From contig NZ_CANKUD010000001.1 in assembly GCF_947486615.1 (NCBI RefSeq), positions 434,001-498,000 of the forward strand: 64,000 nt of DNA, in the 5' to 3' direction. Under the pieces are notes generated by a model. The model was not told the DNA's origin and did no database searches. It saw only the letters and a program-made list of their open reading frames with translations. Every line of letters begins with the position of its first letter. The first letter of the stretch is position 1. Below are positions 3,456 to 31,527 of this stretch, one piece after another. The position numbers were made by a program, and so were the translations under genes. This stretch comes from an uncultured Modestobacter sp. Lineage in GTDB: Bacteria; Actinomycetota; Actinomycetes; Mycobacteriales; Geodermatophilaceae.

Positions 3456-3470
3456 GGAGTCACCTCCCGT

Positions 3471-3501: not shown

Positions 3502-3507
3502 CCACTG

Positions 3508-5535
3508 GTGACCTCACTGGCGGCACCGCCGCGCACAGTCCCCGCCGCGCGGCCGCGCCGTCGGCTGCCCGGCTGGACGGCGGTCCCGGAGGTGCGGTGG
3601 GCCGCCGCCGCGCTGGCGCTGTTCCTCGCCGGCGGCCTGGTGCAGCTGCTGGACGGGCCGCAGCCGCTGGCCTGGGCGCTGTACCTGGGCTGCTACGTCA
3701 CCGGCGGGTGGGAGCCGGCCTGGGCGGGGCTCACCGCGCTGCGCGAGTGCACCCTGGACGTCGACCTGCTGATGGTGCTGGCCGCGATCGGCGCGCTGGC
3801 GCTGGGCCAGGTGTTCGACGGGGCACTGCTGATCGTCATCTTCGCCACCTCCGGCGCCCTGGAGACAGTCGCCACCCGGCGCACCGCCGAGGCCGTGCGC
3901 GGGCTCACCGACCTCACCCCCGAGCAGGCCACCGTGCTGGCCGGCGGGCAGGAACGGCAGCTGCCGGTCGCCGACCTCGCGGTCGGCGACGTCGTCCTGG
4001 TCCGACCCGGCGAGCGGGTGCCGGCCGACGGCACGGTCGTCGACGGTGGGTCCGACGTCGACCAGGCATCGATCACCGGCGAGCCGCTGCCGGTGGACAA
4101 GGTGGCCGGTGACGAGGTCTGGGCCGGCACGGCCAACGGCACGGGGGCGCTCACCGTCCGGGTCGACCGGCCGGCGGCCGACGCGGTCGTCGCCCGGATC
4201 GCCGCCCTGGTCGAGGAGGCCAGCGCCACCAAGGCCCGCACCCAGCTGTTCATCGAGAAGGTCGAGCAGCGGTACTCGATGGGCGTGGTGCTGAGCACGC
4301 TGGCCGTGTTCGGCGTCCCGCAGCTGTTCGGGGAGTCGCTGCAGGAGGCGCTGCTGCGGGCGATGACCTTCATGATCGTCGCCTCGCCGTGCGCGGTGGT
4401 GCTGTCGACGATGCCGCCGCTGCTGTCGGCGATCGCCAACGCCAGCCGGCACGGGGTGCTGGTGCGCTCGGCCGTGGTGCTCGAGCAGCTGGGGGCGACC
4501 ACGGTGGTGGCACTGGACAAGACCGGCACGCTCACCGACGGCGCGCCCGCGGTGGTCGCCGTCCGCCCGCTGCCGGGCACGACCGGCGAGGAGCTGCTCG
4601 CACTGGCCGCGGCCGCCGAGGCGTCCAGCGAGCACCCGATCGGCCGCGCCGTGGTCGCCGCGGCCGGGTCGCCCCCGGCACCGGCCACGGACTTCCGGGC
4701 CACGGTCGGCTCCGGCGTGAGCGCGACCGTGGACGGTCGCCGGGTCACCGTGGCCGCACCGAGCCCGGACGACGCCGCGGTGGCGGAGCTGGTCGGCGAG
4801 GAGCAGGCCGACGGCCGCACCGCCGTCGTGGTCACCGTGGACGGCCGGCCCGCCGGGGTGCTGGCGCTGGCCGACCGGGTGCGCCCCGAGGCCGCCGACA
4901 CCGTGGCTGCGCTGCGCCGGCAGACCGGCGCGGAGCCGGTGCTGCTCACCGGCGACAACGCCGGTGCCGCCCGGGCGCTGGCCGCCCAGGTCGGGTTGCG
5001 GGACGTGCGGGCCGAGCTGCTGCCGCAGGACAAGGCCGCCGTGGTCAGCGACCTGCAGCGCGCCGGACACCGGGTCGCGCTGGTCGGCGACGGGGTGAAC
5101 GACGCCCCGGCGCTGGCCACCGCCGACGTGGGCGTGGCGATGGGCGGCATCGGCTCGGACCTGGCGCTGCAGAGCGCGGACGCCATCGTCGTCCGGGACG
5201 ACCTGGCCACGCTGCCCACGGTGATCGCGCTGGCCCGCCGGGCCCGCCGGCTGGTGGTGCAGAACCTGGTCATCGCCGGCACGGTCATCGTGGTGCTGGT
5301 GGCCTGGGACCTGCTCGGCACGCTGCCGCTGGCGCTCGGCGTCGCCGGGCACGAGGGGTCCACGGTGCTGGTCGCGCTGAACGGGCTGCGACTGCTGCGC
5401 TCGGCGGCCTGGCGGGACGCCGAGGCCGAGGCGGCGGGCCCTCAGCGCCCGGTGCGGACCAGCCCGGCGGCCACCCCGAGCAGCACCAGCCCGGCCGCCG
5501 GCACCGCCACCAGCCAGGGCGCGCGCTCCAGGTAG
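3508..5535 (+). CDS. CtpD-like P1B-4 ATPase (cobalt/iron-type metal efflux)
   Basis: A 675-residue P-type ATPase with TGEPLP in the actuator, SPC at about 293-295 in the transport helix, D337 in DKTGT, SSEHPIG, and GDGVNDAPAL. The last helix carries HEGST at about 615. SPC plus HEGxT is the signature of P1B-4 pumps such as CtpD and CtpJ, which export Co(II) or Fe(II). It has no N-terminal metal-binding domain, normal for this subgroup. It has its own leaderless promoter and palindromic operator. Its last ~30 codons, a low-complexity Pro/Ala/Ser/Thr tail, overlap the 3' end of the opposing permease gene by 94 bp. Confidence 0.88.
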   Translation: MTSLAAPPRTVPAARPRRRLPGWTAVPEVRWAAAALALFLAGGLVQLLDGPQPLAWALYLGCYVTGGWEPAWAGLTALRECTLDVDLLMVLAAIGALALGQVFDGALLIVIFATSGALETVATRRTAEAVRGLTDLTPEQATVLAGGQERQLPVADLAVGDVVLVRPGERVPADGTVVDGGSDVDQASITGEPLPVDKVAGDEVWAGTANGTGALTVRVDRPAADAVVARIAALVEEASATKARTQLFIEKVEQRYSMGVVLSTLAVFGVPQLFGESLQEALLRAMTFMIVASPCAVVLSTMPPLLSAIANASRHGVLVRSAVVLEQLGATTVVALDKTGTLTDGAPAVVAVRPLPGTTGEELLALAAAAEASSEHPIGRAVVAAAGSPPAPATDFRATVGSGVSATVDGRRVTVAAPSPDDAAVAELVGEEQADGRTAVVVTVDGRPAGVLALADRVRPEAADTVAALRRQTGAEPVLLTGDNAGAARALAAQVGLRDVRAELLPQDKAAVVSDLQRAGHRVALVGDGVNDAPALATADVGVAMGGIGSDLALQSADAIVVRDDLATLPTVIALARRARRLVVQNLVIAGTVIVVLVAWDLLGTLPLALGVAGHEGSTVLVALNGLRLLRSAAWRDAEAEAAGPQRPVRTSPAATPSSTSPAAGTATSQGARSR

Positions 5536-7205
5536 GTCACCCCGTCGGCCAGGGTGCGCCCCCACTCCGGCGACTCGGCGCCGGCGCCCAGGCCGAGGAA
5601 CGACAGCCCGGCCAGGGCGAGGGCGGTGTGCGGCACCCGCAGCAGGGCGTGCCGGCTCACCGGCGGCAGCACGAGCGGGAGCAGGTGGTGGCGCACCAGG
5701 TGCCAGCGACCGGCGCCGCTGGTGCGGGCGGCCAGGTGGAAGCCGGAGGCGCGCGCCTCGGCGGCCAGGGTGCGGGTGTGCACCGCCAGCGGGATCCAGG
5801 CGACCAGGCACACCGCGACCACCGCACCGGTCAGGCTGGGCCCGGCGACGGCGGCCACCGCGATGCCGACCACCACCGCGGGCAGCGCGTTGAGCACGTC
5901 GGCCAGCCCCGCCCGCCCGCGCCCGGCCAGCCCCGCGGCGACCCCCACCACGAGCACCACGGCGCTGATCAGCAGGGCCAGCCCCACCGAGTGCAGCGCG
6001 CCGGCACCGAACCGGGCCAGCACGTCCCGGCCGAGGGCATCGGCGCCCAGCGGATGGGCCCAGGACGGGGCGGCCAGCCGGTCGGTGAGGTCCTGGGCGT
6101 CGGGGTCGCGCAGCAGGCCGGCGGCGACCACCAGCAGCAGCACCGCGAGCAGCCCGGCCGCCCAGCGACCGGCGCCGGGCGCCGGTGGGGGCAGCTCCGG
6201 GGACAGCCCGCCGTCGGTGCCCGCCGGCCCGAGCAGCGCACGGTGCACCAGCACCCCCACGCCCCCGGCGGCCAGCCCGAGCAGCACCAGCAGCGCCACG
6301 GCGGCCTGCACCACCGGCAGGTCCTGGGCCAGCGCGGCGGCCAGCGCCACCCGGCCCAGGCCCGGCACGTCGAACACCGACTCGATCACCGCGCTGGCCC
6401 CGAGCGTGCCGACCAGCAGCAGCAGCACCTGCGGGACGACGACGGTCAGCGCGCGCCGCGCCACCGCCCCCTGCACCGCGGCCCGCGGGACGCCGGCCGC
6501 CCGCCAGCTGCGCACCCAGCCCTCCCCCGCGATGTCCCGCACCGCGCCGGTCAGCACCCGGCCCAGCAGCCCACCGGCCGGCAGCGCCAGCGCGAGCACC
6601 GGCAGCACCAGGTGCTCGGGGCCGGTGAACCCCGAGGTGGGCAGCAGCCCCCAACCGACCGCGAGCACCGCCACGCCGACGACGGCGAGGACGAACTCCG
6701 GCAGCGCCGCCAGCGCGGCCGCCAGCACGCCGACGGCCCGGCCGCCGTCCCCGCGCCCGTCGGCCGCCCGGCGCAGCGCCGGCCCGGCCAGCAGCACCGC
6801 CAGCAGCACGGCCGCCAGCGCGGCCGCGCCGGTCAGCGTGAGCGAGACGCCCAGCGCCGGTGGCACCACCTCGGCGACCGGCTGCCCGCTCACCCAGGAG
6901 GTGCCGAGGTCGCCGGTGACGGCGTGCCCGAGCCAGCCGAGCGTGCCGCGCACCGGGTCGGCGGGTAGGTCCAGCTGCTCGCGCACCGCGTCCAGCACCG
7001 CCGGGTCCGGCTCACGCTCCACCTCCCGCGCGCGAAGCACGGTGCGGGCGGGGTCGTCCCCGGACAGCCAGGGCAGCGCCCCGACGAGCAGCCCGGTGCC
7101 GGCCACCGCCGCCAGCCCGGTCAGCCCCGGGCGGAGCGCGGCCAGCCCGGGTGCCCGCCGCGGCCGGTGCGGGGCCGCCGGCCCTGCCCGGCCGGCGGCG
7201 GTCAC
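5442..7205 (-). CDS. Fused DppB-DppC-type ABC permease (operon A)
   Basis: A 587-residue membrane protein joining both permease subunits of an Opp/Dpp/Nik importer. Residues ~30-310 match the B subunit (…VREQLDLP…GDLGTSW…, ending VPGLGRVALAAA). Residues ~340-587 match the C subunit (HPLGADALGRDVLARF, then LSFLGLGAGAESPEWG near the end). These subunits are normally two proteins of about 300 residues each. GTG start overlapping the binding-protein stop (GTGA), last gene of its operon. The rightward operon at 15738 holds a similar fusion. Import of a peptide, opine or metal chelate is inferred from the family. Confidence 0.85.
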   Translation of the reverse strand: MTAAGRAGPAAPHRPRRAPGLAALRPGLTGLAAVAGTGLLVGALPWLSGDDPARTVLRAREVEREPDPAVLDAVREQLDLPADPVRGTLGWLGHAVTGDLGTSWVSGQPVAEVVPPALGVSLTLTGAAALAAVLLAVLLAGPALRRAADGRGDGGRAVGVLAAALAALPEFVLAVVGVAVLAVGWGLLPTSGFTGPEHLVLPVLALALPAGGLLGRVLTGAVRDIAGEGWVRSWRAAGVPRAAVQGAVARRALTVVVPQVLLLLVGTLGASAVIESVFDVPGLGRVALAAALAQDLPVVQAAVALLVLLGLAAGGVGVLVHRALLGPAGTDGGLSPELPPPAPGAGRWAAGLLAVLLLVVAAGLLRDPDAQDLTDRLAAPSWAHPLGADALGRDVLARFGAGALHSVGLALLISAVVLVVGVAAGLAGRGRAGLADVLNALPAVVVGIAVAAVAGPSLTGAVVAVCLVAWIPLAVHTRTLAAEARASGFHLAARTSGAGRWHLVRHHLLPLVLPPVSRHALLRVPHTALALAGLSFLGLGAGAESPEWGRTLADGVTYLERAPWLVAVPAAGLVLLGVAAGLVRTGR

Positions 7206-8692
7206 TCCCCGACCGTCGTCTCGGCGGTGAGCAGCAGCCGGTCGAACGGGTCGGTGGCCAGGCCGCCGACGGACGGGGCGTACCCGGTGTGGGTGCGCTC
7301 GTGCAGCACCGGCACCACGGCACCGGTGGAGAGCACCGCCGCCTCGGCCCGCAGCGCGGCCGCCCGGCGCTCCTGCGGGTCGGCCACGTCCGCCGCCGCG
7401 GCCACGGCCGCGTCGACCGCCGGGTCGCAGAGCCGGGCGAGGTTGTAGCTGCCCGCGCAGGTCAGGTCGGCGGCGAGGTAGCCGACCGGGTCGCCGGTGT
7501 CGCCCAGGTACAGCCGGCTGGCCAGCACGGCGTCGTAGGTGCCGGCCAGCAGGTCGGTCTCCAAGGTGGCGTACTCGGCCACCACGACCTCCACCGCGAA
7601 GCCGGCCTGCCGCAGCTGCTCGGCGAGCACGGCGGCCGCCTCGGGCAGCTCGGCCCGGTCGGAGTAGGTGGCCAGCCGGATGCTCGCGCCGGCCGGGTCG
7701 CTGGCCGGCGGCAAGGCGACCGCCGGCCGGTCGGCCCCGCCGGCGGTGTCGTCGTTGAACAGCCCCTCGGCGACGTCGGCGCGGCCCTCGTAGACGCCGT
7801 CCACGACCGGCTGCGGATCGATCGCCGCGACCGCGGCCGCGCGCAGGCCCGGGTCGGCGAACGGCCCGTCCGCGGTGTCCAGGGAGAGGGAGACCAGCCG
7901 CGGCAGCGGCACCGAGAGCACCTCGGTGTCGGTCAGGGTGGGCAGCTGGGCGATCGGCAGGTTGACCGCCACGTCCAGCTCACCGGCGCGCAGCCCGGCG
8001 GTGCGGGCGGCCGCGTCGGCGGGGAAGGTGACGTCGACGCCGTCCAGCTCGGGAGCCCCGCCCCAGTGGTCGGCGTCCGCGGTCAGGGTGGCGCCGGACG
8101 CGCCGCGCAGCTCGGTCAGCTCGAACGGTCCGGTGCCGGTGCCCACCGGGTCCGGCGCCGCGGGGTCGCCATAGGCGGCCGGCGCGAGCACGACCAGCCC
8201 GGGGGCGGCGAGCCGCTGCAGCAGCAGGGGGTCGGGCTCGGCCAGCTGCACCTCCACGGTGTCCTCGTCCACCGCGCGGGCGGTGAGGCCCAGTCCGTCG
8301 ATCGACCGCGGGGCGGGCGAGGCCGCGGCCGCGGCGGTCAGCGCGCCGGCGGCGGCCTCGGCGTCCAGCGGCGTCCCGTCGTGGAACTGCACGCCCGCGC
8401 GCAGGTCCAGGGTGACGGTCCGGTCGTCGACCCGGGCCCAGCTCTCCGCCAGCTGCGGGGTGGGGTCGCCGGCCTCGTCCAGGCCGACCAGCGTCTCCCC
8501 CACGCCCATCCGGGTGACCAGCACCGCGTCGTCGGAGAACGGGGAGAGCGCCGCGACCGGCGGGAAGGCGAGGGCGAGCGCCAGCCGTTGCTCGCCCTCG
8601 GCCGGCGCGTCCGCTCCGGGGGCGAAGCAGCCGGCGAGCAGGGCGGGCAGCACCAGCAGGGCGCCGACGGCACGGGGCGCGGGGCGGGACAT
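7202..8692 (-). CDS. ABC transporter substrate-binding lipoprotein, SBP family 5 (operon A)
   Basis: A 496-residue extracytoplasmic binding protein of the Dpp/Opp/Nik group. It begins with a lipoprotein signal ending in LLAGC (Cys about 22) and continues with family landmarks: PQLAESW, VQFHDGTPLDAE, GTGPFELTEL and VVDGVYEGRADVAEGLF. The start ATG follows GAGGAACC. Length and motifs resemble CntA/NikA-type proteins, which bind metal-metallophore complexes, although peptide binding is equally typical. It is clearly related to the protein at 14226. It sits between the MFS gene and the fused permease in one leftward operon. Confidence 0.85.
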   Translation of the reverse strand: MSRPAPRAVGALLVLPALLAGCFAPGADAPAEGEQRLALALAFPPVAALSPFSDDAVLVTRMGVGETLVGLDEAGDPTPQLAESWARVDDRTVTLDLRAGVQFHDGTPLDAEAAAGALTAAAAASPAPRSIDGLGLTARAVDEDTVEVQLAEPDPLLLQRLAAPGLVVLAPAAYGDPAAPDPVGTGTGPFELTELRGASGATLTADADHWGGAPELDGVDVTFPADAAARTAGLRAGELDVAVNLPIAQLPTLTDTEVLSVPLPRLVSLSLDTADGPFADPGLRAAAVAAIDPQPVVDGVYEGRADVAEGLFNDDTAGGADRPAVALPPASDPAGASIRLATYSDRAELPEAAAVLAEQLRQAGFAVEVVVAEYATLETDLLAGTYDAVLASRLYLGDTGDPVGYLAADLTCAGSYNLARLCDPAVDAAVAAAADVADPQERRAAALRAEAAVLSTGAVVPVLHERTHTGYAPSVGGLATDPFDRLLLTAETTVGE

Positions 8693-8715
8693 GGTTCCTC
8701 TTCTCGGTCGACCGG

Positions 8716-10029
8716 TCACGGGTGCGCCGGTTCCTCGGCGGGGACGGCGGGCGCCGGGAGCCCCGCCGGCGGTGTGCGGGCGATCCGCCGGGTGAGCAGC
8801 GCCAGCCCGACGGCGGAGGCCGCGGGCAGCGCCGCCAGCACCAGCCACGGGACGGCGGCGGCCGGCTGCGGCCGGTCGGCGAGGTCGAGCAGGGCGCCCA
8901 CCCCGGTGCTGCCCACCAGCACCGCGGCGCCGCCGGCGGAGGCGAGGAAGCCGAAGTGGGCGCCCAGCCGCCGCTCGCCGGCGAGGCGGGGCACCAGGTC
9001 CTGGGCGAGCGGGACGGCGACCATCTGGCCGGTGTAGAGCAGCAGCACCATGCCCACCGCGGGCGCGAGCGCCCAGATGCCGGACGGTGGCGCGAGCGGG
9101 GCGCACACCGCGACCAGCAGGAACGAGGCGCTCATCAGGGCGAACCCGAACGGCAGCGCCCGGTGCGCCCCCGCCCGCCGGGCGCGGGCGGTGATCCGCA
9201 GCTGGAACAGCAGCACCGACACCGCGGCCAGCACGAACAGCCAGCCGAGCGCGCCCTGGCTGCCGGTGGCCCGGGACAGCTCCACGGGCAGCGCGAGGTA
9301 GAGCTGGTTGTAGCTGAGCAGGTAGGTGCAGTAGCAGGCGGTGAAGGCCAGGAAGGTGCGGTTGCGCAGCACGTGACCCCAGCCGGCGAGCACGCTCTCC
9401 TCCCCGCTGCCCTCGGTGCGCAGGTCGCGCGGCAGCCAGCGCAGGTGCGCGGCGAGGACGACGCCGAAGACGCCGGCGGACACCCAGCAGGTGACGCTGA
9501 AGGGCACGGCGAGCAGCACCGCGCCCAGCGCCGGGCCGGTGACCGAGCCGAGCTTGCTGGCGATCGCGTCCAGGCCGAACACCTCGGCCCGGGTCACCAC
9601 CCCGGCGACCTCCAGCCGGTGCCCCTGGTCGGCCAGCGCGGACTCCACGGCCGGGGAGAACAGCGCCGCGGCGAAGCCGACCAGCACGGTGCCCAGCAGC
9701 ACCGCCGGCAGCGCGTCGGCGACGGCGAGCACCGCGAACCCGGCGATCCGGATCAGGCAGCCGATGACCACCACGGGCTTGACGCCGAACCGGTCGGCCA
9801 GCCCACCGCCGAGGAAGAACAGGCCCTGCTGGCTGAAGGTGCGCACGCCGAGCACCAGGCCGACCAGCCCGCCGGCCAGCGCCAGGTCCTCGGTCAGGTG
9901 CACGGCCAGGAACGGCACCACCAGGTAGAAGCCGACGTTGAAGGCCAGCTGGGAGGCCAGCAGCAGCCGCGGCACCGCGGGCAGCCGGCGGAACAGCACC
10001 AGCGGCTGCCAGCTGATCCGCCCGGTCAC
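8716..10029 (-). CDS. MFS transporter (operon A; candidate metallophore exporter)
   Basis: A 437-residue major facilitator with about twelve helices. The loop between helices 2 and 3 contains GGGLADRFGVKP, the usual MFS signature. GTG start overlapping the upstream ATPase gene by 4 bp, and 23 bp before the binding-protein gene. An MFS exporter embedded in an Opp/Nik-type importer operon is the layout of the staphylopine cnt locus, where CntE exports the metallophore and CntABCDF retrieve its metal complex. Export of a chelator is therefore a reasonable inference, but a drug or sugar exporter cannot be excluded. Confidence 0.8.
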   Translation of the reverse strand: MTGRISWQPLVLFRRLPAVPRLLLASQLAFNVGFYLVVPFLAVHLTEDLALAGGLVGLVLGVRTFSQQGLFFLGGGLADRFGVKPVVVIGCLIRIAGFAVLAVADALPAVLLGTVLVGFAAALFSPAVESALADQGHRLEVAGVVTRAEVFGLDAIASKLGSVTGPALGAVLLAVPFSVTCWVSAGVFGVVLAAHLRWLPRDLRTEGSGEESVLAGWGHVLRNRTFLAFTACYCTYLLSYNQLYLALPVELSRATGSQGALGWLFVLAAVSVLLFQLRITARARRAGAHRALPFGFALMSASFLLVAVCAPLAPPSGIWALAPAVGMVLLLYTGQMVAVPLAQDLVPRLAGERRLGAHFGFLASAGGAAVLVGSTGVGALLDLADRPQPAAAVPWLVLAALPAASAVGLALLTRRIARTPPAGLPAPAVPAEEPAHP

Positions 10030-10811
10030 GTCAGCACCAGCCGCGGGACGGCGGTGACCAGGGCGCGCGCCTCCCGGCTGGCCGGGTCGGTGAGCACCCG
10101 GTCGACCGGGCCGGCCTCCACGACCCGGCCACCGGCCAGCACCACCACGTCGGAGCAGAGCGCGGAGACCACGCCCAGGTCGTGCGAGACGACCAGCAGC
10201 GCCACGCCCTCGGCGTCACCGATCTCGCGCAGCAGGTCGACCACCTGCAGCCGGACGGCGGCGTCCAGCGCGCTCACCGGCTCGTCGGCGATCAGCACCT
10301 CCGGACGGGGGGCGAGTGCGCGGGCCAGCGCGATCCGCTGCCGCTGGCCGCCGGAGAACTCGTGCGGCAGCCGCGTGGCGGCGTCCGGGTCGAGCCCGAC
10401 GGCGAGCAGCAGCTCGGCGACCCGGGCGCGGTGGTCGCCGGCCACCCGCAGGCAGCGCAGCGGCTCGGCCACGGCGTCCCCGACGCGCATCCGCGGGTTC
10501 AGCGAGCGGCCGGTGTCCTGCGGCACCACCTGCACGGCCCGGCGGAACCAGTGCAGCGACCGGGGCCGGCCCGGGTGCACCGGCCGGCCGCGGTAGGTGA
10601 CCTCCCCGGCGTCGGGCCGCTCCAGCCCGAGCAGCAGCCGGGTGAGGGTGGACTTGCCGGCGCCGGACTCCCCCACCACGGCCACCCGCCGGCCGGCACC
10701 GACGACCAGGGCGACGCCGTCCAGCGCGGGTGCGTCGCTGCCGCGGTACCGGCGGGTCAGCCCGCGTGCGGCCAGCAGCGGGACGTCGCTCGTCCGGGAC
10801 CCGGCGCTCAC
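10026..10811 (-). CDS. Opp/Nik-type ABC ATPase, DppF-like (operon A)
   Basis: A 261-residue ATP-binding subunit with Walker A GESGAGKS, Q-loop VPQDTGRSLNP, signature FSGGQRQR, Walker B VLIADEPVSALD and switch His in VVSHD. It is the second of two ATPases that would power the fused permease. GTG start, overlapping both the upstream ATPase gene and the downstream MFS gene by 4 bp, so translation is coupled along the operon. Confidence 0.88.
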   Translation of the reverse strand: MSAGSRTSDVPLLAARGLTRRYRGSDAPALDGVALVVGAGRRVAVVGESGAGKSTLTRLLLGLERPDAGEVTYRGRPVHPGRPRSLHWFRRAVQVVPQDTGRSLNPRMRVGDAVAEPLRCLRVAGDHRARVAELLLAVGLDPDAATRLPHEFSGGQRQRIALARALAPRPEVLIADEPVSALDAAVRLQVVDLLREIGDAEGVALLVVSHDLGVVSALCSDVVVLAGGRVVEAGPVDRVLTDPASREARALVTAVPRLVLT

Positions 10812-11605
10812 CGGGCACCCACCAGGGCCGGCGGGCTGAGCGCGGCGGTGGCCTCGACCAGGGCGCGCACCGCGGGGTGGTCGTGCCCGGCCAGCACCTG
10901 GTGCAGCGGCCCGTCGGCCAGCAGCCGGCCCTCGTCCAGCACCAGCACCCGGTCGCAGGTGGTCGCCGCGGCGGCGAGGTCGTGGGTGACCAGCAGCAGC
11001 CCGGCGCCGCGCTCGCGGGTGGCGCGGCCGAGCGCCGCGAGCACCCCGTGCTGGGCGGTGGCGTCGAGTGCGGACGTCGGCTCGTCGGCGACCAGCAGCC
11101 GGGGGCTCCCGGCCAGCGCCATGGCGAGCGCGGCCCGCTGCCGCTGCCCGCCGGACAGCTGCACCGGGAACCGCCGGTCGGTGCCCGCGGGCAGCCGCAT
11201 CTCCGCCAGCAGCTCACCGGCCCGCACCGCGGCCGCCCGGCGACCGGTCCCGGTCCGGCGCAGCGGAGCGGCCACCTGCCGGCCCACCCGCACCTGCGGG
11301 TTGAGCGAGGTGCCCGGGTCCTGCGGCACGAGCGCGGTCACCGGCCCCCGCAGCGGGCGCAGCTCCCGCTCCGGGGCGCCGACCACCTCGGTGCGCTCGA
11401 CCCGGACGCTGCCGGTGACGACGGCGTCCGGGGGCAGCAGGCCGAGCAGGGCGAGCGTGGTCAGCGTCTTGCCCGACCCCGAGGCGCCGACCAGGGCGAC
11501 CCGCTCCCCCGCGGCGACGTCGAAGGAGACACCGGACACGACGGTGCGGCCGCCGAAGCCGACGGTGAGCGCGCGGACCTGCAGCAGGGGGAACCCGTCG
11601 CTCAC
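10808..11605 (-). CDS. Opp/Nik-type ABC ATPase, DppD-like (operon A)
   Basis: A 265-residue ATP-binding subunit with Walker A GASGSGKT, VPQDPGTSLNP, signature LSGGQRQR, Walker B LLVADEPTSALD and LLVTHD. It pairs with the next ATPase to energise import. The GTG start overlaps the dioxygenase stop codon (GTGA). Everything needed for a nucleotide-binding subunit is intact, so this importer should be functional. Confidence 0.88.
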   Translation of the reverse strand: MSDGFPLLQVRALTVGFGGRTVVSGVSFDVAAGERVALVGASGSGKTLTTLALLGLLPPDAVVTGSVRVERTEVVGAPERELRPLRGPVTALVPQDPGTSLNPQVRVGRQVAAPLRRTGTGRRAAAVRAGELLAEMRLPAGTDRRFPVQLSGGQRQRAALAMALAGSPRLLVADEPTSALDATAQHGVLAALGRATRERGAGLLLVTHDLAAAATTCDRVLVLDEGRLLADGPLHQVLAGHDHPAVRALVEATAALSPPALVGAR

Positions 11606-12414
11606 CAGGCGTCCGCGGTCAGCACCGTCAGCACGTCGACGTCCCGCTGGCCGGTGAACGGGTCGCGGCCGTGCAGGCAGCGGTAGTTGTCGATCACCAG
11701 CACCTCGCCGGCCTCCAGCCGGAAGTGCGGCACCACGTCCACGGCGGTGGCGAGCACGTCGGCCCACAGGTCCAGGTGGGCCTCGTGCTCGGCGGCGCGC
11801 GGCTCGCGCGGCACCGGGACGGCGGTCTCGCTGGCCCGCACCACCCGGCGGCCGGCCCGGGTGTGCTCGACCAGCCGCCGCACCAGCGGGGTGCGCGGCA
11901 CCTCGTGCGGTGCGGTCTGCCACCCGCCGAAGTAGTCGACGTCGGTGCCGGTCAGGAAGGCGTGCAGCTCCGGGCAGCCGGTGGCCAGCGCGTCGACGAG
12001 GGCGTACCCGTCGACCAGGAACGAGTCGCCGCCCTCGGGCGCCGGCCGGACGCAGCGCTGCAGCAGCCCGTCCTCGTCCGGGTCGCGCAGGGCGACCGTA
12101 CGGCCGTGCACGTCGACCACCACGTAGGCGCCGTCGCTGTGCAGCCCGAGCAGCTCGCCGGCCTGCTGGCGCAGCGGGCGGACGGCGAACAGCTGCCGGA
12201 GCCGGTCGCCGTAGAGCTGGGCGGCGACCACCGGCAGCGCCTCGGGCCCCGGACCGGGCTCGGCCACCACGACCGCGCCGTCCCGGGCGAGCAGCTCCCG
12301 CGCCTCCTCGACGCTGCCCGCCGACTGCGGGACGACCCCGGTGGCGCGGAGCAGGTCGGCCAGCTCGGGGCGGACGGCGCCCACCCGGCGACCGGAGGGG
12401 GTGCGTGCGGCCAA
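11602..12414 (-). CDS. Fe(II)/2-oxoglutarate dioxygenase, TauD/GBBH-like (operon A)
   Basis: A 270-residue non-haem iron oxygenase. The iron triad is visible: H92-x-D94 in GLHSDGAYV and the distal H248 in DNYRCLHGRDPF, with R257 as the likely 2-oxoglutarate anchor. The DNxRxLHGR and GGDSFLVDGY stretches resemble gamma-butyrobetaine and trimethyllysine hydroxylases rather than classical TauD. It lacks the N-terminal zinc domain of GBBH. The start is probably TTG, because AGGAGG lies six bases upstream; a GTG ten codons later is the alternative. As first gene of an importer/exporter operon it may make or open a small-molecule ligand. The substrate is unknown. Confidence 0.75.
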   Translation of the reverse strand: MAARTPSGRRVGAVRPELADLLRATGVVPQSAGSVEEARELLARDGAVVVAEPGPGPEALPVVAAQLYGDRLRQLFAVRPLRQQAGELLGLHSDGAYVVVDVHGRTVALRDPDEDGLLQRCVRPAPEGGDSFLVDGYALVDALATGCPELHAFLTGTDVDYFGGWQTAPHEVPRTPLVRRLVEHTRAGRRVVRASETAVPVPREPRAAEHEAHLDLWADVLATAVDVVPHFRLEAGEVLVIDNYRCLHGRDPFTGQRDVDVLTVLTADAW

Positions 12415-12499
12415 GGTGTTCCTCCTGGGGATGGGTGGTGCCGGCCGGGCGAGGGGCTCCGGCCCGGTCCGCGAGGGGGCCTCGCCCGTGGAACGGTAT

Positions 12500-12514
12500 T
12501 GCAACCACCTTGCA
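12500..12514. promoter_or_regulatory. 15-bp palindrome upstream of operon A
   Basis: TGCAA and TTGCA form perfect inverted arms around CCACC, 86 bp upstream of the dioxygenase start. The size equals a Zur box, but the bases differ from the TGAnAA…TTnTCA pattern seen at 12575, 17556 and 31493. It may be the operator of a different regulator. No convincing leftward -35/-10 pair was identified beside it. Confidence 0.35.
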
Positions 12515-12541
12515 GGAAGGCGACCGGCTCGAGACGGGCAG

Positions 12542-12589
12542 CTGACGGGCGCCCGACGCGACCGGGTAGATTGCCGACAATGGTTATCA
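12542..12589 (+). promoter_or_regulatory. Leaderless promoter and Zur-box-like operator over the start codon of operon B
   Basis: A -35-like CTGACG (12542-12547) and a -10 TAGATT (12567-12572) place transcription start at the ATG (12580). CGACAATGGTTATCA (12575-12589) differs at one base from TGACAATGGTTATCA, which fits the actinobacterial Zur pattern, and it contains the start codon. Zur with zinc bound here would block initiation. It lies 161 bp from the start of divergent operon A and might influence both. Confidence 0.65.
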
Positions 12590-13398
12590 CTCCGGCGCGA
12601 GCGGAGGACCGGCTGCCGGCGCTCGTCGTCGACGGCCTCTCGGTCTCCCTCGGCGGCCGGGAGCTCGTGCGCGGGGTCCGGCTCGAGGTCGGGGCGACCG
12701 AGCGGGTGGCGCTGATCGGTGCGTCGGGCTCGGGCAAGTCGTTGACCGCCGCAGCGGTGCTGGGCACCCTGCCCGCCGGCGCGCAGGTCCGCGGCAGCGT
12801 CCAGGTGGCCGGGGTCGAGGTGACCGGCCGCCCGCCGGCCCGCCGTCCCGCCGCCGCCCGGGTCGCCGCGGTGGGCCAGGACCCGGCCGCCGCCCTCAAC
12901 CCGCTGGTGCCGGTCGGCGCGCAGCTGGCCCTGCCGCTGCGCAACCACCGCGGGCTGCGCGGCGCCGAGCTGGCGCGGCAGCGCACCGAGCTGCTCGCGG
13001 CGGTCGGCCTGGACGACGCCGAGCGGGTGCTGCACAGCTCCCCCGGCGAGCTCTCCGGCGGTCAGCGGCAGCGGGTCTGCATCGCCATGGCGCTGGCCTC
13101 CCGCGCCGGGCTGCTGGTGGCCGACGAGCCGACGACCGCCCTGGACCTGGTCACCCAGGCCCAGGTGGTCACCGTGCTGCGCGAGGCCACCCGGGACGCC
13201 GCCCTGCTCTTCATCACCCACGACCTGGCGGTGGCCGCCGCCCTCTGCGACCGCGCCGTCGTGCTGCACGGGGGCGCCGTCGTGGAGGACGCCCCGATCA
13301 CCCGGCTGCTGACCGACCCCCGGCACGAGCAGAGCGCCGCACTGGTGCGCGCCGCCCGCGCCGGCGCGCTGCCCACCCGGGCCGGGGTCGCCTCGTGA
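12580..13398 (+). CDS. Opp/Nik-type ABC ATPase, DppD-like (operon B)
   Basis: A 272-residue ATP-binding subunit with Walker A GASGSGKS, Q-loop GQDPAAALNP, signature LSGGQRQR, Walker B LLVADEPTTALD and FITHD. First gene of the rightward operon. The ATG lies at the predicted transcription start and inside a Zur-like palindrome, so no Shine-Dalgarno is expected. It corresponds to the ATPase at 10808 in the mirrored operon A. Zinc-starvation-induced import is inferred from the operator. Confidence 0.87.
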   Translation: MVITPARAEDRLPALVVDGLSVSLGGRELVRGVRLEVGATERVALIGASGSGKSLTAAAVLGTLPAGAQVRGSVQVAGVEVTGRPPARRPAAARVAAVGQDPAAALNPLVPVGAQLALPLRNHRGLRGAELARQRTELLAAVGLDDAERVLHSSPGELSGGQRQRVCIAMALASRAGLLVADEPTTALDLVTQAQVVTVLREATRDAALLFITHDLAVAAALCDRAVVLHGGAVVEDAPITRLLTDPRHEQSAALVRAARAGALPTRAGVAS

Positions 13399-14195
13399 GC
13401 GGCCCGGTGGACGGCCCGGTGCTCACCGCCGCGGGCATCGAGCGCGGCTACCCGCTGCCCCGGCGCCGCCCGTGGGGGCCGCGCACCACCGTGGCCGCGC
13501 TGCGGGGGGTCGACCTGCGCGTCGCCGCCGGGGAACGGGTCGGGCTGGTGGGCACCTCCGGCTCGGGGAAGTCCACCCTGCTGCGCTGCCTGCTGGCGCT
13601 GGAGAGCCCCGATCGCGGCACCGTGACCGTCGCCGGTCGCGCCGTCCGTCCGGGGTCGACGGCGTCGCTGCGCTGGTACCGCCGGCTGGTCCAGTACGTG
13701 CCCCAGGACCCGGCCGGCTCGCTCGACCCGCGCTCGACCGTGCGCGAGCTGGTCTCGGTCCCGCTGCGGCACCTGCAGGTGCCCGGCGACCACGCCGCCG
13801 CCGTCACCACCGCGCTCACCCGGGTTGGCCTGGACCCCGACCTGGCCGGCCGGCGTCCCGGGGAGCTCTCCGGCGGCCAGGCCCAGCGGGTCGCCCTGGC
13901 GCGGGCGCTGGCCCCCGAGCCGGTGCTGCTGCTGGCCGACGAGCCGGTCAGCGGCCTGGACTTGCCGGTGCGCGACCAGGTGGTGGAGGTGCTGGCCGAC
14001 CTCTCCGCCCGCCAGGGCCTGGGGCTGCTGCTGGTCTCCCACGACCTGGCCGTCGTCGCCCGGCTCTGCGACCGCACCGTCGTGCTCGCCGACGGGCTCG
14101 TGGTCGAGGAAGGGCCCACGGCCGACCTCCTCACCCGCCCCGCGCACCCGCGCACCCGGGACCTGCTCGACGCCGTCCCCACCCTGCCCGCCTGA
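13395..14195 (+). CDS. Opp/Nik-type ABC ATPase, DppF-like (operon B)
   Basis: A 266-residue ATPase subunit with Walker A GTSGSGKS, VPQDPAGSLDP, signature LSGGQAQR, Walker B LLLADEPVSGLD and LLVSHD. The GTG start overlaps the previous stop by 4 bp. Together with the preceding gene it supplies the pair of nucleotide-binding subunits for the fused permease at 15738. The binding-protein gene follows after 30 bp. Confidence 0.87.
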   Translation: MSGPVDGPVLTAAGIERGYPLPRRRPWGPRTTVAALRGVDLRVAAGERVGLVGTSGSGKSTLLRCLLALESPDRGTVTVAGRAVRPGSTASLRWYRRLVQYVPQDPAGSLDPRSTVRELVSVPLRHLQVPGDHAAAVTTALTRVGLDPDLAGRRPGELSGGQAQRVALARALAPEPVLLLADEPVSGLDLPVRDQVVEVLADLSARQGLGLLLVSHDLAVVARLCDRTVVLADGLVVEEGPTADLLTRPAHPRTRDLLDAVPTLPA

Positions 14196-14225
14196 CCGCT
14201 GACCCACCCCACAGAGAACGGAACG

Positions 14226-15734
14226 ATGTCCTCCTCCCGCACTCCCCGCCTGCTCGCGCTCGGCGCCACCGTCGCCCTGCTGACCACCGGCTGCTTCAGC
14301 AGCTCGACCGACGGCGGCGGCAGCGAGGCCGCCGCCGAGGGCCGGATCTCGCTGGCCATGCTGCAGCCGCCGCGCTCGGGGCTGAACCCGCTGACCGACG
14401 ACGCGTTCAAGCTCTCCCGCTGGAGCACCGCCGAGACCCTGGTGGTGCTGGACGCCGACGGCGACGCCCAGCCCGCCCTGGCCACCGAGTGGACCCAGAC
14501 CGACGACCTCACCTGGCGGTTCACCGTCCGCGAGGGCGTCGAGTTCCACGACGGCACCGAGCTGACCGCCGAGCAGGCCGCCGCCGCGCTGACCGCCGCG
14601 AACGAGGCCTCGCCCCGGCCGCGGATCCTGGACGGTGTCGAGCTGAGCGCCGTGGCCGACGGCTCCGACGTCGTGGTCACCACCGGTGAGGCCGACCCGC
14701 TGGTCCCGCAGCGGATGTCCAGCCCGCAGCTGGCGGTCCTCGCCGCGGCCGCCTACGGCGCGGACGGCCGGGTCGACCCGGTCGGCCACGGCACCGGCCC
14801 GTTCGAGCTGGTCGCCGTGGACGGCACCTCCGGCGCCACCCTCGACCGCTTCGACGGCTACTGGGGCGACCCCGCGGCCGCCGCCGGCATCGACGTGTCC
14901 TTCGTGCCCGACGGCACCGCCCGGGCCGCGGCGCTGCGCACCGGCACCGCCGACGTCGTCGAGGCGGTGCCGGTCTCCCAGGCCGGGCTGGTCGACGAGG
15001 AGCTGGTGCACGAGGTGCCCATGCCGCGCACCAACACCCTCTACCTGAACACCGTGTCCGGGCCGTTCGCCGACCCGGCGGTGCGCGCCGCCGCCCGGGC
15101 CGCGGTGGAGCGGGCCACCATCGTGGAGAACGTCTACGAGGGCCGGGCCGACATCGCCGAGGGCCTGCTGGGCCCGGCCATCCCGTGGGCCGCCGACCTG
15201 CGCGAGGGCCAGGCGGACGCCGCGGCGCCGGCCGTGCCGGCCGGCACGACGATCACCCTGGGCACCTTCACCGACCGGGCCGAGCTGCCCGAGGTCGCCG
15301 TGCTGCTCGAGCAGCAGCTGGAGGCGGTCGGCTTCACCGTGGAGCAGGACGTCCGGGAGTACGCCTTCATCGAGGCCGACGCCCTGGCCGGCGTGTTCGA
15401 CGCGTTCATCCTGTCCCGCGCCACGGTGCTGGACTCCGGCGACCCGGTCGCCTACCTGTACAGCGACTTCGCCTGCGAGGGCTCGTTCAACATCGCCCAG
15501 CTGTGCGACCCGGCGGTGGACGCCGCCCTCGAGGAGGCCGCGGCCGCCACTCCGGGCCCGGAGCGCCAGCAGGCGGTCATCGCCGCCGAGCGGGCGATCC
15601 TGGACACCGGTGCCGCGGTGCCGATGCTGCACGAGCGGGTCATCCAGGGTGAGGCCGCCGGCGTCTCCGGTGCCGTGCGCGACCCGCGCGAGCGGGCGCT
15701 GATCACCGCCGACACCACCGTCGGCGAGGACTGA
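14226..15734 (+). CDS. ABC transporter substrate-binding lipoprotein, SBP family 5 (operon B)
   Basis: A 502-residue lipoprotein: signal peptide ending LLTTGC (Cys about 23), then a Ser/Gly-rich linker, then a family-5 binding fold with EFHDGTELTAEQ, GHGTGPFELVAV and IVENVYEGRADIAEGLL. It is recognisably a paralogue of the protein at 7202, including the C-terminal …VLHER/MLHER…TADTTVGE(D) region. Both therefore probably bind related ligands. The ligand (peptide, opine, metal chelate) cannot be read from sequence. Confidence 0.85.
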   Translation: MSSSRTPRLLALGATVALLTTGCFSSSTDGGGSEAAAEGRISLAMLQPPRSGLNPLTDDAFKLSRWSTAETLVVLDADGDAQPALATEWTQTDDLTWRFTVREGVEFHDGTELTAEQAAAALTAANEASPRPRILDGVELSAVADGSDVVVTTGEADPLVPQRMSSPQLAVLAAAAYGADGRVDPVGHGTGPFELVAVDGTSGATLDRFDGYWGDPAAAAGIDVSFVPDGTARAAALRTGTADVVEAVPVSQAGLVDEELVHEVPMPRTNTLYLNTVSGPFADPAVRAAARAAVERATIVENVYEGRADIAEGLLGPAIPWAADLREGQADAAAPAVPAGTTITLGTFTDRAELPEVAVLLEQQLEAVGFTVEQDVREYAFIEADALAGVFDAFILSRATVLDSGDPVAYLYSDFACEGSFNIAQLCDPAVDAALEEAAAATPGPERQQAVIAAERAILDTGAAVPMLHERVIQGEAAGVSGAVRDPRERALITADTTVGED

Positions 15735-15737
15735 GCC

Positions 15738-17528
15738 GTGCCACGGCGGGGATGGGTGACCGCCGCCTCCCGGGCGGTCACCGTCCTCGGCGTGGTGGCG
15801 CTGATCGGGGTGCTGCCCTGGCTGTCCGGCCGCAGCCCGGAGCTGTCGATCCTGCGGGCACGCTCGGCCGAGCAGGAGGCCACCCCGGAGGCGCTCGCGG
15901 CGATCCGGGCCGAGCTCGGCCTGGACGCCGGCCCGCTCGGGCTGCTCGGGCACTGGCTGTCCGGGCTGCTCCGCGGCGACCTGGGCACCTCGTGGATCTC
16001 CGGCGGACCGGTGGGTCCCGGGCTCATCGAGGCCCTCGGCGTCTCGGTGACGCTGATGACCGCGGCCCTGCTGGTCGCGCTGGCCACCGCGGCGCTGCTG
16101 TGCTGGCCGCCGCTGCACCGGGTCGCCCGGGGTGAGCGGGGCCGCACCGGTGGCGCGGTCGGGGCCGCCCTCACCGCGCTGCCGGAGTTCCTGCTGGCTT
16201 CCGTGCTGCTCCTGGTCGGCGCGGTGTGGCTGGGCTGGTTCCAGCCCTTCGGCTGGACCGGCCCGTCCTCGGTGGTGCTGCCGGCGCTGGCGATGGGCCT
16301 GCCCGCGGGCGGGCTGATCGGCCGGCTGGTCGCCGACGGGCTCACCGTCACCGGCACCGAGCGGTGGGTGCCCACCTGGCAGGTGGCCGGCGCGTCGGCC
16401 GGTCAGCTGAGCCGCGCCCTGGTGCGCCGCACCCTGCCGGCGCTGACCACCCAGGTGGCGCTGGTGCTGGTCGGCCTGACCGGCGGGGCGGTCGCCGTGG
16501 AGCAGGTGTTCGCCGTCCCCGGGCTGGGGCGCGCGGTGCTCGGCGCCGCGTCGGCCCAGGACCTGCCGACCCTGCAGGCCGGGATGCTGCTGCTGCTCGG
16601 CGTCTCGGCGGTGTTCGGCGGGCTGGCCGCGCTGACCCGGGCACTGCTGCTGGGCCGGGCGCTGCGCAGCGGCAGCGTGCCGGTACCGGCCCGCACCACC
16701 CCGTCCCGGCGGCGCGACTGGCTGCTGCCGGCCGGTGCGGCCGGGCTGCTCGTCGTCGTGGTGGCCGCCGGCCTCGGTCGTGACCCGCTGGCCTCGGCGC
16801 ACCCCCGGCTGGCCGCGCCCAGCGTCGCGTTGCCGTTCGGCGCCGACGCCAGCGGGCGTGACCTGCTGGCCCGGGTGGCCCACGGGGCGGTGCAGACCGT
16901 CGGCACGGCGACCCTGGTCGTGCTGGCCACGCTCGTGGTCGGCGTCCTGGTGGGGCTGCTGCCCCGGGCGTCGGTCGGGCCGGTGGAGGTCGCCAACGCC
17001 GCGCCCCCGGTGATCGTCGGCGTGCTGGTCGCCGCGGCGCTGGGCACGTCCCAGGCAGGGGCGGCGCTGGCCGTCGCACTGGTCGCCTGGGCGCCGATCG
17101 CGGCGTACGTCGCGGCCGCGTCGGAGGAGGTCCGGCGGCAACGCCACGTCACCGTGCTGCCGGTGCTGGGGGTGGGGCCGGCGGCGGTCACCTGGCGCCA
17201 CGTGGTGCCGGCCGTGCTGCCCGCCGCCGCCCGCAACGCCGTGCTCCGGCTGCCGGGCATCGCGCTGGCCCTGGCCGCGCTGGGCTTCCTGGGCCTAGGG
17301 GCCACGCCGCCGGCCCCGGAGTGGGGGCTGCTGCTGGCCGAGGGGATGCCCTACGTCGAGCGGGCGCCCTGGGCGGTGCTCGCCCCGACCGCGGCGCTGG
17401 TGACCACCTCGGTGCTCGCCGTCTCGCTGTCCGGGCTGAGCCGCCGCCCGCGCCGGCCGGCCGGGCCGGTCGCGGTGCCGGCCGGGACGACGGCCCCGTC
17501 GCCGGAGCAGCCCGCCGCGGTGGGGTGA
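15738..17528 (+). CDS. Fused DppB-DppC-type ABC permease (operon B)
   Basis: A 596-residue protein again merging both permease subunits. The B-like half (~1-305) has IRAELGLDAGP, GDLGTSWISG and VPGLGRAVLGAA. The C-like half (~335-596) has LPFGADASGRDLLARV and GFLGLGATPPAPEWGLLLAEG. The GTG start is 3 bp after the binding-protein stop. Same fusion as at 5442, so the fusion predates the duplication of the two operons. The gene ends 61 bp before znuA, with the znuA Zur box in between. Confidence 0.85.
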   Translation: MPRRGWVTAASRAVTVLGVVALIGVLPWLSGRSPELSILRARSAEQEATPEALAAIRAELGLDAGPLGLLGHWLSGLLRGDLGTSWISGGPVGPGLIEALGVSVTLMTAALLVALATAALLCWPPLHRVARGERGRTGGAVGAALTALPEFLLASVLLLVGAVWLGWFQPFGWTGPSSVVLPALAMGLPAGGLIGRLVADGLTVTGTERWVPTWQVAGASAGQLSRALVRRTLPALTTQVALVLVGLTGGAVAVEQVFAVPGLGRAVLGAASAQDLPTLQAGMLLLLGVSAVFGGLAALTRALLLGRALRSGSVPVPARTTPSRRRDWLLPAGAAGLLVVVVAAGLGRDPLASAHPRLAAPSVALPFGADASGRDLLARVAHGAVQTVGTATLVVLATLVVGVLVGLLPRASVGPVEVANAAPPVIVGVLVAAALGTSQAGAALAVALVAWAPIAAYVAAASEEVRRQRHVTVLPVLGVGPAAVTWRHVVPAVLPAAARNAVLRLPGIALALAALGFLGLGATPPAPEWGLLLAEGMPYVERAPWAVLAPTAALVTTSVLAVSLSGLSRRPRRPAGPVAVPAGTTAPSPEQPAAVG

Positions 17529-17554: not shown

Positions 17555-17583
17555 TTGACAACGATTCTCATTACCCGGACCAT
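17555..17583 (+). promoter_or_regulatory. Zur box and promoter of znuACB
   Basis: TGACAACGATTCTCA (17556-17570) matches the actinobacterial Zur operator (TGA-AA…TT-TCA) and overlaps a consensus -35 TTGACA (17555-17560). A weak -10, GACCAT (17578-17583), is 17 bp downstream and six bases before the znuA ATG, suggesting a leaderless transcript. Zn-Zur would cover the -35 and repress zinc uptake when zinc is plentiful. Confidence 0.8.
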
Positions 17584-17589: not shown

Positions 17590-18600
17590 ATGCAGTCACC
17601 GCGCCACCGACGTCCCGCCCGCTCGCTGTCCACGCTGTCCCTGACCTGCGCCGCGGCGGTGGCGCTGGCCGGCTGTTCCGGCGCGGCCGATGCGGACGCC
17701 GCAGGTGCCGACGAGAGCAAACTGACCGTCGTGGCGGCGTTCTACCCGCTGGCGTGGCTGAGCGAGCAGGTGGCCGGCGACCTGGCCGACGTCACCTCGC
17801 TCACCCCGGACGGCGCCGAGCCGCACGAGTACGAGCTCACCCCCCGCGACGTCGCCGCCACCGCCGAGGCCGACGTGGTGGTCTTCCTGCCGACGCTGCA
17901 GCCCGCCGTGGACGCCGCGGTCGAGCAGCAGGCCGCCGAGCGGGCCTTCGACGCCGGCGAGCCGGCCGACCTGTCGCTCACCTACGAGGCCCACGACCAC
18001 GAGCACGCGGACGGCGAGCACGCGGAGGATGAGCACGCCGAGGACGAGCACGCGGACGAGGAGCACGCCGACGAGCCGGTGACCGACCCGCACTTCTGGC
18101 ACGACCCGATGCGGATGGCGGCGGTCGGCGACGCGCTGGCCGAGCGCCTGGCCACCGCGGACGAGGCCAACGCCGATCAGTACACCGCCAACGCCGCGGA
18201 CCTGCGGGCCCAGCTCGAGGAGCTGGACGGGGAGTTCCGCGCCGGCCTGACCGACTGCGCCAGCCGCGAGCTGGTCACCAGCCACACCGCCTTCGGCTAC
18301 CTCGCCGACGCCTACGACCTCGAGCAGTTCGGCATCAGCGGGCTGGCGCCGGACGCCGAGCCCGCCACCGACGCGCTGACCGAGGCGACCGAGTTCGTCC
18401 GGGAGCACGACGTGCGCACCCTCTACTTCGAGACGCTGGTCAGCCCCGCCGTCGCCGAGACCGTGGCCCGGGAGACCGGCGCGCAGACCCGGCAGCTGGA
18501 CCCGATCGAGGGGCTGACCGACGAGTCGGCGGGTGGGGACTACCTGGCGCTGATGCGGGCCAACCTGGCCAGCCTGCAGGAGGGGCAGACGTGCTCCTGA
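17590..18600 (+). CDS. znuA: Zinc ABC transporter substrate-binding lipoprotein ZnuA
   Basis: A 336-residue cluster-9 binding protein. Lipoprotein signal ends LAGC (Cys about 23). The mature part has FYPLAWLSEQVAG and the first metal ligand region DGAEPHEYELTPRD. An acidic/His-rich loop of repeated EHAxDE units follows at about residues 137-160, then DPHFWHDPMRM and the SHTAFGYL ligand region. The His-rich loop is typical of zinc rather than manganese carriers. It captures Zn(II) outside the membrane for ZnuB. Followed by znuC with a 10-bp overlap and preceded by a Zur box. Confidence 0.92.
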   Translation: MQSPRHRRPARSLSTLSLTCAAAVALAGCSGAADADAAGADESKLTVVAAFYPLAWLSEQVAGDLADVTSLTPDGAEPHEYELTPRDVAATAEADVVVFLPTLQPAVDAAVEQQAAERAFDAGEPADLSLTYEAHDHEHADGEHAEDEHAEDEHADEEHADEPVTDPHFWHDPMRMAAVGDALAERLATADEANADQYTANAADLRAQLEELDGEFRAGLTDCASRELVTSHTAFGYLADAYDLEQFGISGLAPDAEPATDALTEATEFVREHDVRTLYFETLVSPAVAETVARETGAQTRQLDPIEGLTDESAGGDYLALMRANLASLQEGQTCS

Positions 18601-25160: not shown

Positions 25161-27624
<2,464 letters not shown>

Positions 27625-27628
<4 letters not shown>

Positions 27629-28581: not shown

Positions 28582-28584
28582 CGG

Positions 28585-31005: not shown

Positions 31006-31006
31006 C

Positions 31007-31521: not shown

Positions 31522-31527
31522 GGGGTC

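Follow-up and report, generated by a model that had tools for sequence, protein, structure and literature searches.

A stretch of 64,000 nucleotides from an uncultured Modestobacter sp. (the whole stretch is called the window) contains two divergent ATP-binding cassette (ABC) importer operons of the Nik/Opp type, placed back to back at 5442-17528, each with a fused B-C permease. The left operon runs leftward from 12414 down to 5442 and encodes a dioxygenase, two ATPases, a protein of the major facilitator superfamily (MFS), a binding lipoprotein, and the permease. The right operon (12580-17528) runs rightward, encodes two ATPases, a binding lipoprotein, and the permease, and is followed by znuACB. 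A Nur-type box stands beside the dioxygenase operon and a Zur-type box lies over the start of its sister, which gives the pair the look of one nickel branch and one zinc branch. The case for a metallophore-type uptake module, with an importer that was duplicated and split between nickel and zinc, is judged to be evenly balanced. Considered separately, nickel control of the left operon alone is quite probable on the predicted sites, and a role for the dioxygenase in making or tailoring the ligand is slightly favoured. The host is a soil bacterium with a high-GC genome of 4.7 Mb, of which the window forms part; gene calls outside the window come from our own script.

Two sister importer operons

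By Pfam, each operon encodes two ABC_tran ATPases, one SBP_bac_5 lipoprotein, and one protein with two BPD_transp_1 stretches, which together provide the family-5 binding protein, two permease domains, and two ATPases of a Nik/Opp-type ABC importer. NCBIfam places NikB/OppB-like halves at about residues 40-309 and 16-292 of the two permeases, and NikC/OppC-like halves at about 353-578 and 354-566. Since a single polypeptide carries both halves in each case, the fusions (587 and 596 residues) are genuine. An earlier, sequence-only reading of this DNA had described paired divergent importers with fused permeases, a leftward copy with a dioxygenase and an MFS protein, and znuACB next door; Pfam and NCBIfam bear out the paired importers, the two extra proteins match TauD (PF02668, E 1.7e-20) and MFS_1 (E 2.8e-32), and the znu genes follow on the plus strand at 17590-20173. 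Among the best 25 NCBIfam matches per protein, every match to a named Nik, Opp, or Cnt equivalog is below cut-off in both operons, and the importers are therefore called Nik/Opp-type and no more.

The left and right copies are paralogues, with identities of 47% and 55% for the ATPases, 49% for the lipoproteins, and 47% for the permeases. In a tree of binding proteins the two copies are sisters (100/99), with Pseudonocardia proteins next; the tree holds only proteins from these loci and two far outgroups whose long branches were flagged by the tool, and nearer relatives elsewhere are possible. We infer from these sequences that an importer was duplicated and that its copies were split between nickel and zinc branches. 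Both operons are found back to back in 7 of the 23 genomes of the genus, with znuACB on the other side in one of the seven. Within the most divergent relative (L043, genome G100), znuACB adjoins the left operon instead, showing that the position of the zinc genes relative to the two operons has shifted.

Further importer genes were noted in the host. One is a third double-domain permease (G000:C8:191488-192711), beside an ATPase match and a lipoprotein-like gene, which was set aside as what we take to be a two-domain permease of the Fbp/Thi type. A third Nik/Opp-like set with a binding protein and a permease is present on the minus strand of the window at 24357-30150, where a single chain of 823 residues combines a permease domain with two ATPase stretches and a gene for an S-adenosylmethionine (SAM) methyltransferase overlaps its end.

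Nur-type and Zur-type boxes

The whole genome has one exact match to TTGCAA-N5-TTGCA, the site TTGCAACCACCTTGCAG in the gap between the operons. It agrees, apart from its last base, with the published Nur box consensus tTGCaa-N5-ttGCAA (PMC3919588; here and below, the literature is cited from excerpts of the papers). Allowing one mismatch adds two genome hits, both overlapping the same place, compared with one hit for the reversed control. Twenty sites picked out by pattern in front of CbiM, NiCoT, or family-5 binding protein genes in the family Geodermatophilaceae, none of them at a dioxygenase locus, were used to build a matrix, which scores this site highest in the 64-kb window at 19.1 bits; the runner-up reaches 6.4, and 30 simulated windows of the same dinucleotide make-up reach at most 13.7.

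The pattern itself, when one mismatch is allowed, is present in 62 of the family's 112 genomes, versus 24 of 112 for the reversed control. Thirty listed loci, all outside the host genus, were inspected by eye, and the gene just downstream was CbiM-like in 10, NiCoT-like in 3, and for a family-5 binding protein in 8, that is, of nickel type in 21 of 30. Pfam was run on 10 of these 21 genes and all fitted (1 CbiM, 2 NicO, 7 SBP_bac_5). By NCBIfam, one NicO protein is above the cut-off for the nickel transporter NicT, and two binding proteins have nickel NikA as their best match, below cut-off. Although CbiM by itself would also fit cobalt, NicO genes occupy the same position, which speaks for nickel. 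In the 15 listed loci of the host genus with one of these genes (5 NicO, 10 CbiM), the same ammonium-transporter-like gene is the neighbour and Nur-like sites of 1-3 mismatches stand in front; sites at three mismatches in these loci were counted without a control, and Pfam was applied to the host's own gene pair. Within the host genus, Nur and Zur sites are both aligned in all seven dioxygenase-bearing genomes, even in one where the dioxygenase has only 74% identity. The Nur box, read on the minus strand, occupies exactly the 17 bp between GCCTTC and TACCGT, which are possible -35 and -10 elements of the left operon, and the dioxygenase start codon is 85 bp further.

The second site in the gap, CGACAATGGTTATCA, is similar to the published Zur box tGaNNatSatNNtCa (PMC5472717). 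A genome-wide search for TGANAANNATTNTCA that tolerates one mismatch gives three hits, and its reversed control gives none. The hits are the site in the operon gap, the one before znuA (TGACAACGATTCTCA), and one at G000:C8:204494-204508 (L070), directly before a second arsR-family gene that neighbours an undecaprenyl-diphosphate-synthase-like gene. A Zur matrix of 13 words from other genera, with no Modestobacter sites and no word equal to those of the window, ranks the sites at 12575 (21.9) and 17556 (21.6) first and second in the window, compared with a maximum of 17.9 over 60 simulated windows that match it in dinucleotide composition. The Zur-like site that the sequence-only reading had noted between the operons (12575-12589) is therefore upheld and joined by another before znuA (17556-17570); what that reading overlooked is the different, Nur-type site in the same gap (12499-12515). 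An interpretation with Zur only was dropped once this second site was found. From their positions, each box may repress its own operon.

Regulators and nickel transport in the host

Four FUR-family proteins are encoded in the genome. One, at G000:C1:432307 beside an arsR-family gene 1.3 kb outside the window, best matches 3mwm (E 6.7e-49), presumably the Zur of Streptomyces coelicolor, and is considered the Zur homologue. Another, at G000:C2:523969, best matches 3eyy (E 4.6e-34; next 3.2e-13), which we take to be S. coelicolor Nur, and is considered the Nur homologue. The gene for the latter adjoins a YgfZ-like gene with GCV_T and CAF17 matches, and nur of S. coelicolor is co-located with ygfZ and regulates nikABCDE and sodF (PMC4531530). 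By sequence, a predicted Nur box upstream of the left operon is thus paired with a Nur homologue encoded elsewhere in the genome, and the predicted Zur boxes of the right operon and znuACB are paired with a Zur homologue.

None of the seven genomes of the genus with the dioxygenase has a strong NiCoT match, but 11 of the 16 others do (Fisher p 0.0046); a partial NicO match in one of the seven (G086), just above the family cut-off (31 bits, query 4-165), was not counted. This distribution is not taken as proof that one nickel transporter replaced another: by our reading, a different group of CbiM is found in the 12 genomes that lack a strong NiCoT match, and descent alone may explain the pattern.

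The dioxygenase and its relatives in other actinobacteria

The first gene of the left operon encodes a member of the TauD family of Fe(II)/2-oxoglutarate (2OG) dioxygenases (74.5 bits against a PF02668 cut-off of 27). Residues H92, D94, H248, and R250 are invariant across 32 aligned sequences, and H92, D94, and H248 are, from the fold, presumably the iron ligands. Its start is most likely the TTG at 12414, with AGGAGG just upstream, which gives 270 residues. The nearest listed folds are TmpA and gamma-butyrobetaine dioxygenase (BBOX). ScoE is also a 2OG enzyme, and the isonitrile lipopeptide pathway has companion genes for an acyl carrier protein, a ligase, and a nonribosomal peptide synthetase (NRPS); the idea of ScoE-type isonitrile chemistry found no support, with no such companions by Pfam in the two operons (the rest of the genome was not searched).

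Scanning a single genome per species across 84,980 species yielded 89 relatives; 80 loci were kept. The 75 loci with a called dioxygenase were counted (L081, L103, L141, L149, and L156 were left out) and sorted into 4 Modestobacter, 18 Opp-type, 39 FecCD-type, and 14 other loci. Closest among named relatives are those of Modestobacter (Geodermatophilaceae), with four dioxygenases at 93-94% identity and one at 78%. The Opp-type loci are all from Pseudonocardia and make up 18 of its 20 loci, the remaining two (L094, L098) being classed as other. All 18 contain genes for an MFS protein, a binding protein, two permeases, and the dioxygenase; the MFS gene is divergently oriented, the permeases are unfused, and the cassette is without an ATPase. 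FecCD-type loci, a class defined by FecCD and Peripla_BP_2 (39/39), are present in Streptomyces, Lentzea, Saccharothrix, Rhodococcus rhodnii, and others. They often include genes for an MFS protein of the c4 group (30/39), DUF364 (27), a pyridoxal phosphate (PLP) enzyme (27), a GHMP-kinase-like protein (17), and a methyltransferase-like protein (17). The best NCBIfam match of the PLP enzyme is SbnA, below cut-off. The MFS protein of the window is hardly like the c4 group (at best 28% over 143 residues, E 0.004).

Branches of a dioxygenase tree, made by a quick method from 74 rows of at least 200 residues, correspond to Modestobacter (support 100), Pseudonocardia (90), and mainly FecCD-type loci (100), with two of the other loci in the Pseudonocardia branch and seven in the FecCD-type branch. 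The enzyme is retained although the exporters and importers beside it are of different types, an argument for a functional link. In actinobacteria, the dioxygenase and an MFS protein recur with Nik/Opp importers (Modestobacter, Pseudonocardia) or with FecCD importers.

Zur-type sites with up to two mismatches lie upstream of the dioxygenase operon in 28 of the 39 FecCD-type loci, versus 1 of 39 for the reversed control. Three of the four Modestobacter loci have boxes in this count; L080 was missed, probably through a wrong gene-caller boundary, as it is the same region as L048, where both boxes are present. The FecCD-type gene set (L102-L148, L152), mostly with Zur boxes and matched to no described cluster, is a candidate zinc-chelator biosynthesis cluster, and its gene content suggests a kinase and PLP-enzyme route to an amino-acid-derived chelator. 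DUF364 is present in 3 of 4 FecCD-type genomes examined; none is over cut-off in G320, and G275 has one outside the locus. In Pseudonocardia (L082-L101), gaps between the MFS and binding-protein genes share a conserved palindrome, CATGCA-N6-TGCACAT, next to a TTGAC element; it is neither a Nur nor a Zur box.

Proposed mechanism and alternative explanations

Repression by Nur and Zur, the direction of transport, the ligand, and the reaction are all deduced from gene content and predicted sites, and a mechanism can be proposed on these terms. When nickel is low, Nur would leave the box at 12499-12515, and the dioxygenase, MFS exporter, and Nik/Opp-type importer would be made. The dioxygenase might oxidise a small precursor into a metal-binding ligand, or finish one, and the MFS protein would export it. 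The left lipoprotein would then capture the metal-ligand complex, and the fused permease and its two ATPases would import it. Under Zur, together with znuACB, the sister importer of the right operon may take up a complex of zinc, perhaps with the same ligand or one akin to it. A stronger version of this mechanism is tentative and rather doubtful: a dedicated, Nur-controlled nickel metallophore, made or finished by a single 2OG dioxygenase and with its importer twinned under zinc, in which the enzyme would mark a wider, undescribed class of non-opine clusters for zinc and nickel metallophores in actinobacteria.

Several observations weigh against a duplicated metallophore module of this kind. 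Beyond the dioxygenase, the left operon has no enzyme gene. None of the seven dioxygenase-bearing Modestobacter genomes has DUF364 over cut-off (there is one weak match, in G102, and the other co-clustered genes were not searched there), and the Modestobacter dioxygenase may therefore act on something else, or a shorter route may exist. Neither type of box marks the Opp-type loci of Pseudonocardia, where Zur sites were found in 0 of 18 (control 1/18) and Nur sites in 0 of 18 with up to two mismatches and 3 of 18 with up to three. Nur-like sites with up to two mismatches also occur in 3 of the 39 FecCD-type loci (control 0), which blurs the assignment of a metal to the family. At 9 of the 30 listed Nur-pattern loci there is no nickel-type gene at the site, and the second Nur half-site is TCGCAG in three other genomes of the genus. 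The two boxes of the window are 59 bp apart, so each might act on both operons. Nickel demand and supply in the host raise further points. Urease alpha has no match in its genome (other nickel enzymes were not searched), which speaks against urease as the nickel sink there, and 16 of the 23 genomes of the genus have urease alpha. The host also encodes CbiM next to an ammonium transporter, accompanied by Nur-like sites that depart from the pattern at 2-3 bases, so the left operon would be a second nickel route.

The chief alternative is that the dioxygenase acts inside the cell, where it would oxidise or cleave an imported chelator, its own or foreign, and free the metal, with the MFS protein expelling the spent ligand in a form of piracy or recycling. 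As the sole enzyme of the Opp-type cassette, with DUF364, PLP-enzyme, kinase-like, or methyltransferase-like genes nearby in 0 of 18 loci, a ligand-breaking enzyme is easier to understand than a ligand-making one, and the matched folds include the catabolic TauD and TmpA. Set against this are the FecCD-type loci, which look biosynthetic, with PLP-enzyme genes in 27 of 39, kinase-like and methyltransferase-like genes in 17 of 39 each, and MFS genes in 30 of 39; overall, we regard ligand breakage as unlikely. The same catabolic folds, along with NCBIfam matches that stay below cut-off, would also suit an ordinary nickel or peptide importer that has no link to the drug exporter and catabolic dioxygenase encoded beside it; an amino-acid-like nutrient would be one example of a substrate, and importers of the Nik/Opp type serve many ligands. 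This explanation is very improbable, as the dioxygenase and MFS protein accompany metal-type importers across three dioxygenase branches, two MFS groups, and two importer types.

Both operons might instead be zinc systems under Zur, with the Nur-like site incidental or belonging to another regulator. The good Zur box in the shared gap, the adjacent znuACB, and the Zur boxes at 28 of 39 FecCD-type loci of dioxygenase relatives are all consistent with this. However, the Zur box lies over the start codon of the right operon, at least 161 bp upstream of the dioxygenase start, and a separate, conserved Nur-type box intervenes whose pattern mostly marks nickel-type transporters in the family; zinc control of both operons is accordingly held to be improbable. 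The earlier proposal of a zinc-chelator system is thus supported as to metal control, the Zur site, the adjacent znuACB, and the logic of exporter, importer, and enzyme, and is not supported in making the dioxygenase operon its zinc component, since the site adjacent to that operon is of Nur type and the Zur box lies over the dioxygenase-free operon.

If the duplicated, nickel- and zinc-responsive module is real, the combination of dioxygenase, MFS protein, and metal-type importer under Nur or Zur would provide a genetic handle on chelators missed by a search for CntM. It would also be a bacterial system with a secreted ligand dedicated to nickel, and a clear case of importer duplication re-wired to a second metal via a different regulator site. 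The chemistry is open to testing through the FecCD-type loci, many of which are in Streptomyces and which combine Zur boxes with genes for PLP enzymes, kinase-like proteins, and methyltransferase-like proteins.

Features of the locus and its neighbourhood

Coordinates are collected in Table 1. Positions 1-34000 gave zero Rfam matches to riboswitches. The left end of the island looks like a metal-efflux region, with two tandem P-type ATPase genes at 1236-5535, close to the genes for the Zur homologue and an arsR-family protein that lie immediately beyond the window's left edge. On the other side, at 30482-33065, genes for ribosomal proteins S18, S14, and L31 flank a CobW-family GTPase gene and look like further zinc-starvation genes; a weak Zur-like site at 31493 (14.2 bits) is inside the null range.

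Table 1. Genes and predicted regulatory sites of the paired importer operons and znuACB.
Feature	Position	Strand	Basis
Fused NikB-NikC-like permease, left operon, 587 aa	5442..7205	-	Pfam, NCBIfam
SBP_bac_5 binding lipoprotein, left operon	7202..8692	-	Pfam, NCBIfam; start from own gene call
MFS protein, exporter-like, left operon	8716..10029	-	Pfam; best NCBIfam model MdtH, below cut-off
NikE/OppF-like ATPase, left operon	10026..10811	-	Pfam, NCBIfam
NikD/OppD-like ATPase, left operon	10808..11605	-	Pfam, NCBIfam; start overlaps dioxygenase stop
TauD-family Fe(II)/2OG dioxygenase, 270 aa, left operon	11602..12414	-	PF02668; TTG start (most likely)
Predicted Nur-type box TTGCAACCACCTTGCAG	12499..12515		Pattern and matrix
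Predicted Zur-type box CGACAATGGTTATCA, over right operon start codon (12580)	12575..12589		Pattern and matrix
NikD/OppD-like ATPase, right operon	12580..13398	+	Pfam, NCBIfam
NikE/OppF-like ATPase, right operon	13395..14195	+	Pfam, NCBIfam
SBP_bac_5 binding lipoprotein, right operon	14226..15734	+	Pfam, NCBIfam
Fused NikB-NikC-like permease, right operon, 596 aa	15738..17528	+	Pfam, NCBIfam
Predicted Zur-type box TGACAACGATTCTCA before znuA	17556..17570		Pattern and matrix
znuA zinc-binding protein	17590..18600	+	PF01297
znuC ATPase	18591..19301	+	PF00005 (ABC_tran); named by position between znuA and znuB
znuB permease	19295..20173	+	PF00950

Comparison with known systems

Opine metallophore systems are under metal-starvation control. 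Among the best-ranked matches in the open-licence PubMed Central (PMC) literature, there was no description of a system that combines a dioxygenase, an MFS protein, and a metal-type importer. In the opine-like systems, members have swapped exporters (MFS or EamA) and importers (Opp or FecCD), and the CntM opine dehydrogenase is the defining feature (PMC7438024). The left operon resembles staphylopine (cnt) and its relatives in having one MFS exporter and an Opp-type ABC importer, which is FecCD-type in other members. Unlike cnt, its sole enzyme is a TauD-family dioxygenase, and two copies of the importer stand back to back with different metal boxes. The sequence-only reading had reported no opine-dehydrogenase or nicotianamine-synthase-like gene, and Pfam and NCBIfam likewise find none among the ten proteins of the two operons, to which this search was confined. 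Its comparison with opine metallophores consequently stands for the transporter logic and fails for membership, as CntM is missing from the operons.

Compared with TmpA and gamma-butyrobetaine dioxygenase, the host enzyme is 17-23% identical over the aligned part, is shorter, and is encoded in a metal-type transport operon. Coelibactin and [S,S]-ethylenediamine-disuccinate (EDDS) are products of Zur-controlled chelator clusters of actinobacteria (PMC5472717, PMC4993170). The FecCD-type dioxygenase loci, which belong to the same phylum, could be of this kind; the window operons differ in being without an NRPS by Pfam. With nikABCDE of Streptomyces under Nur (PMC4531530, PMC3919588), the left operon shares a Nik-type importer and a Nur box, and it is set apart by its fused permease, by the dioxygenase and exporter within the operon, and by the sister operon on the zinc side.

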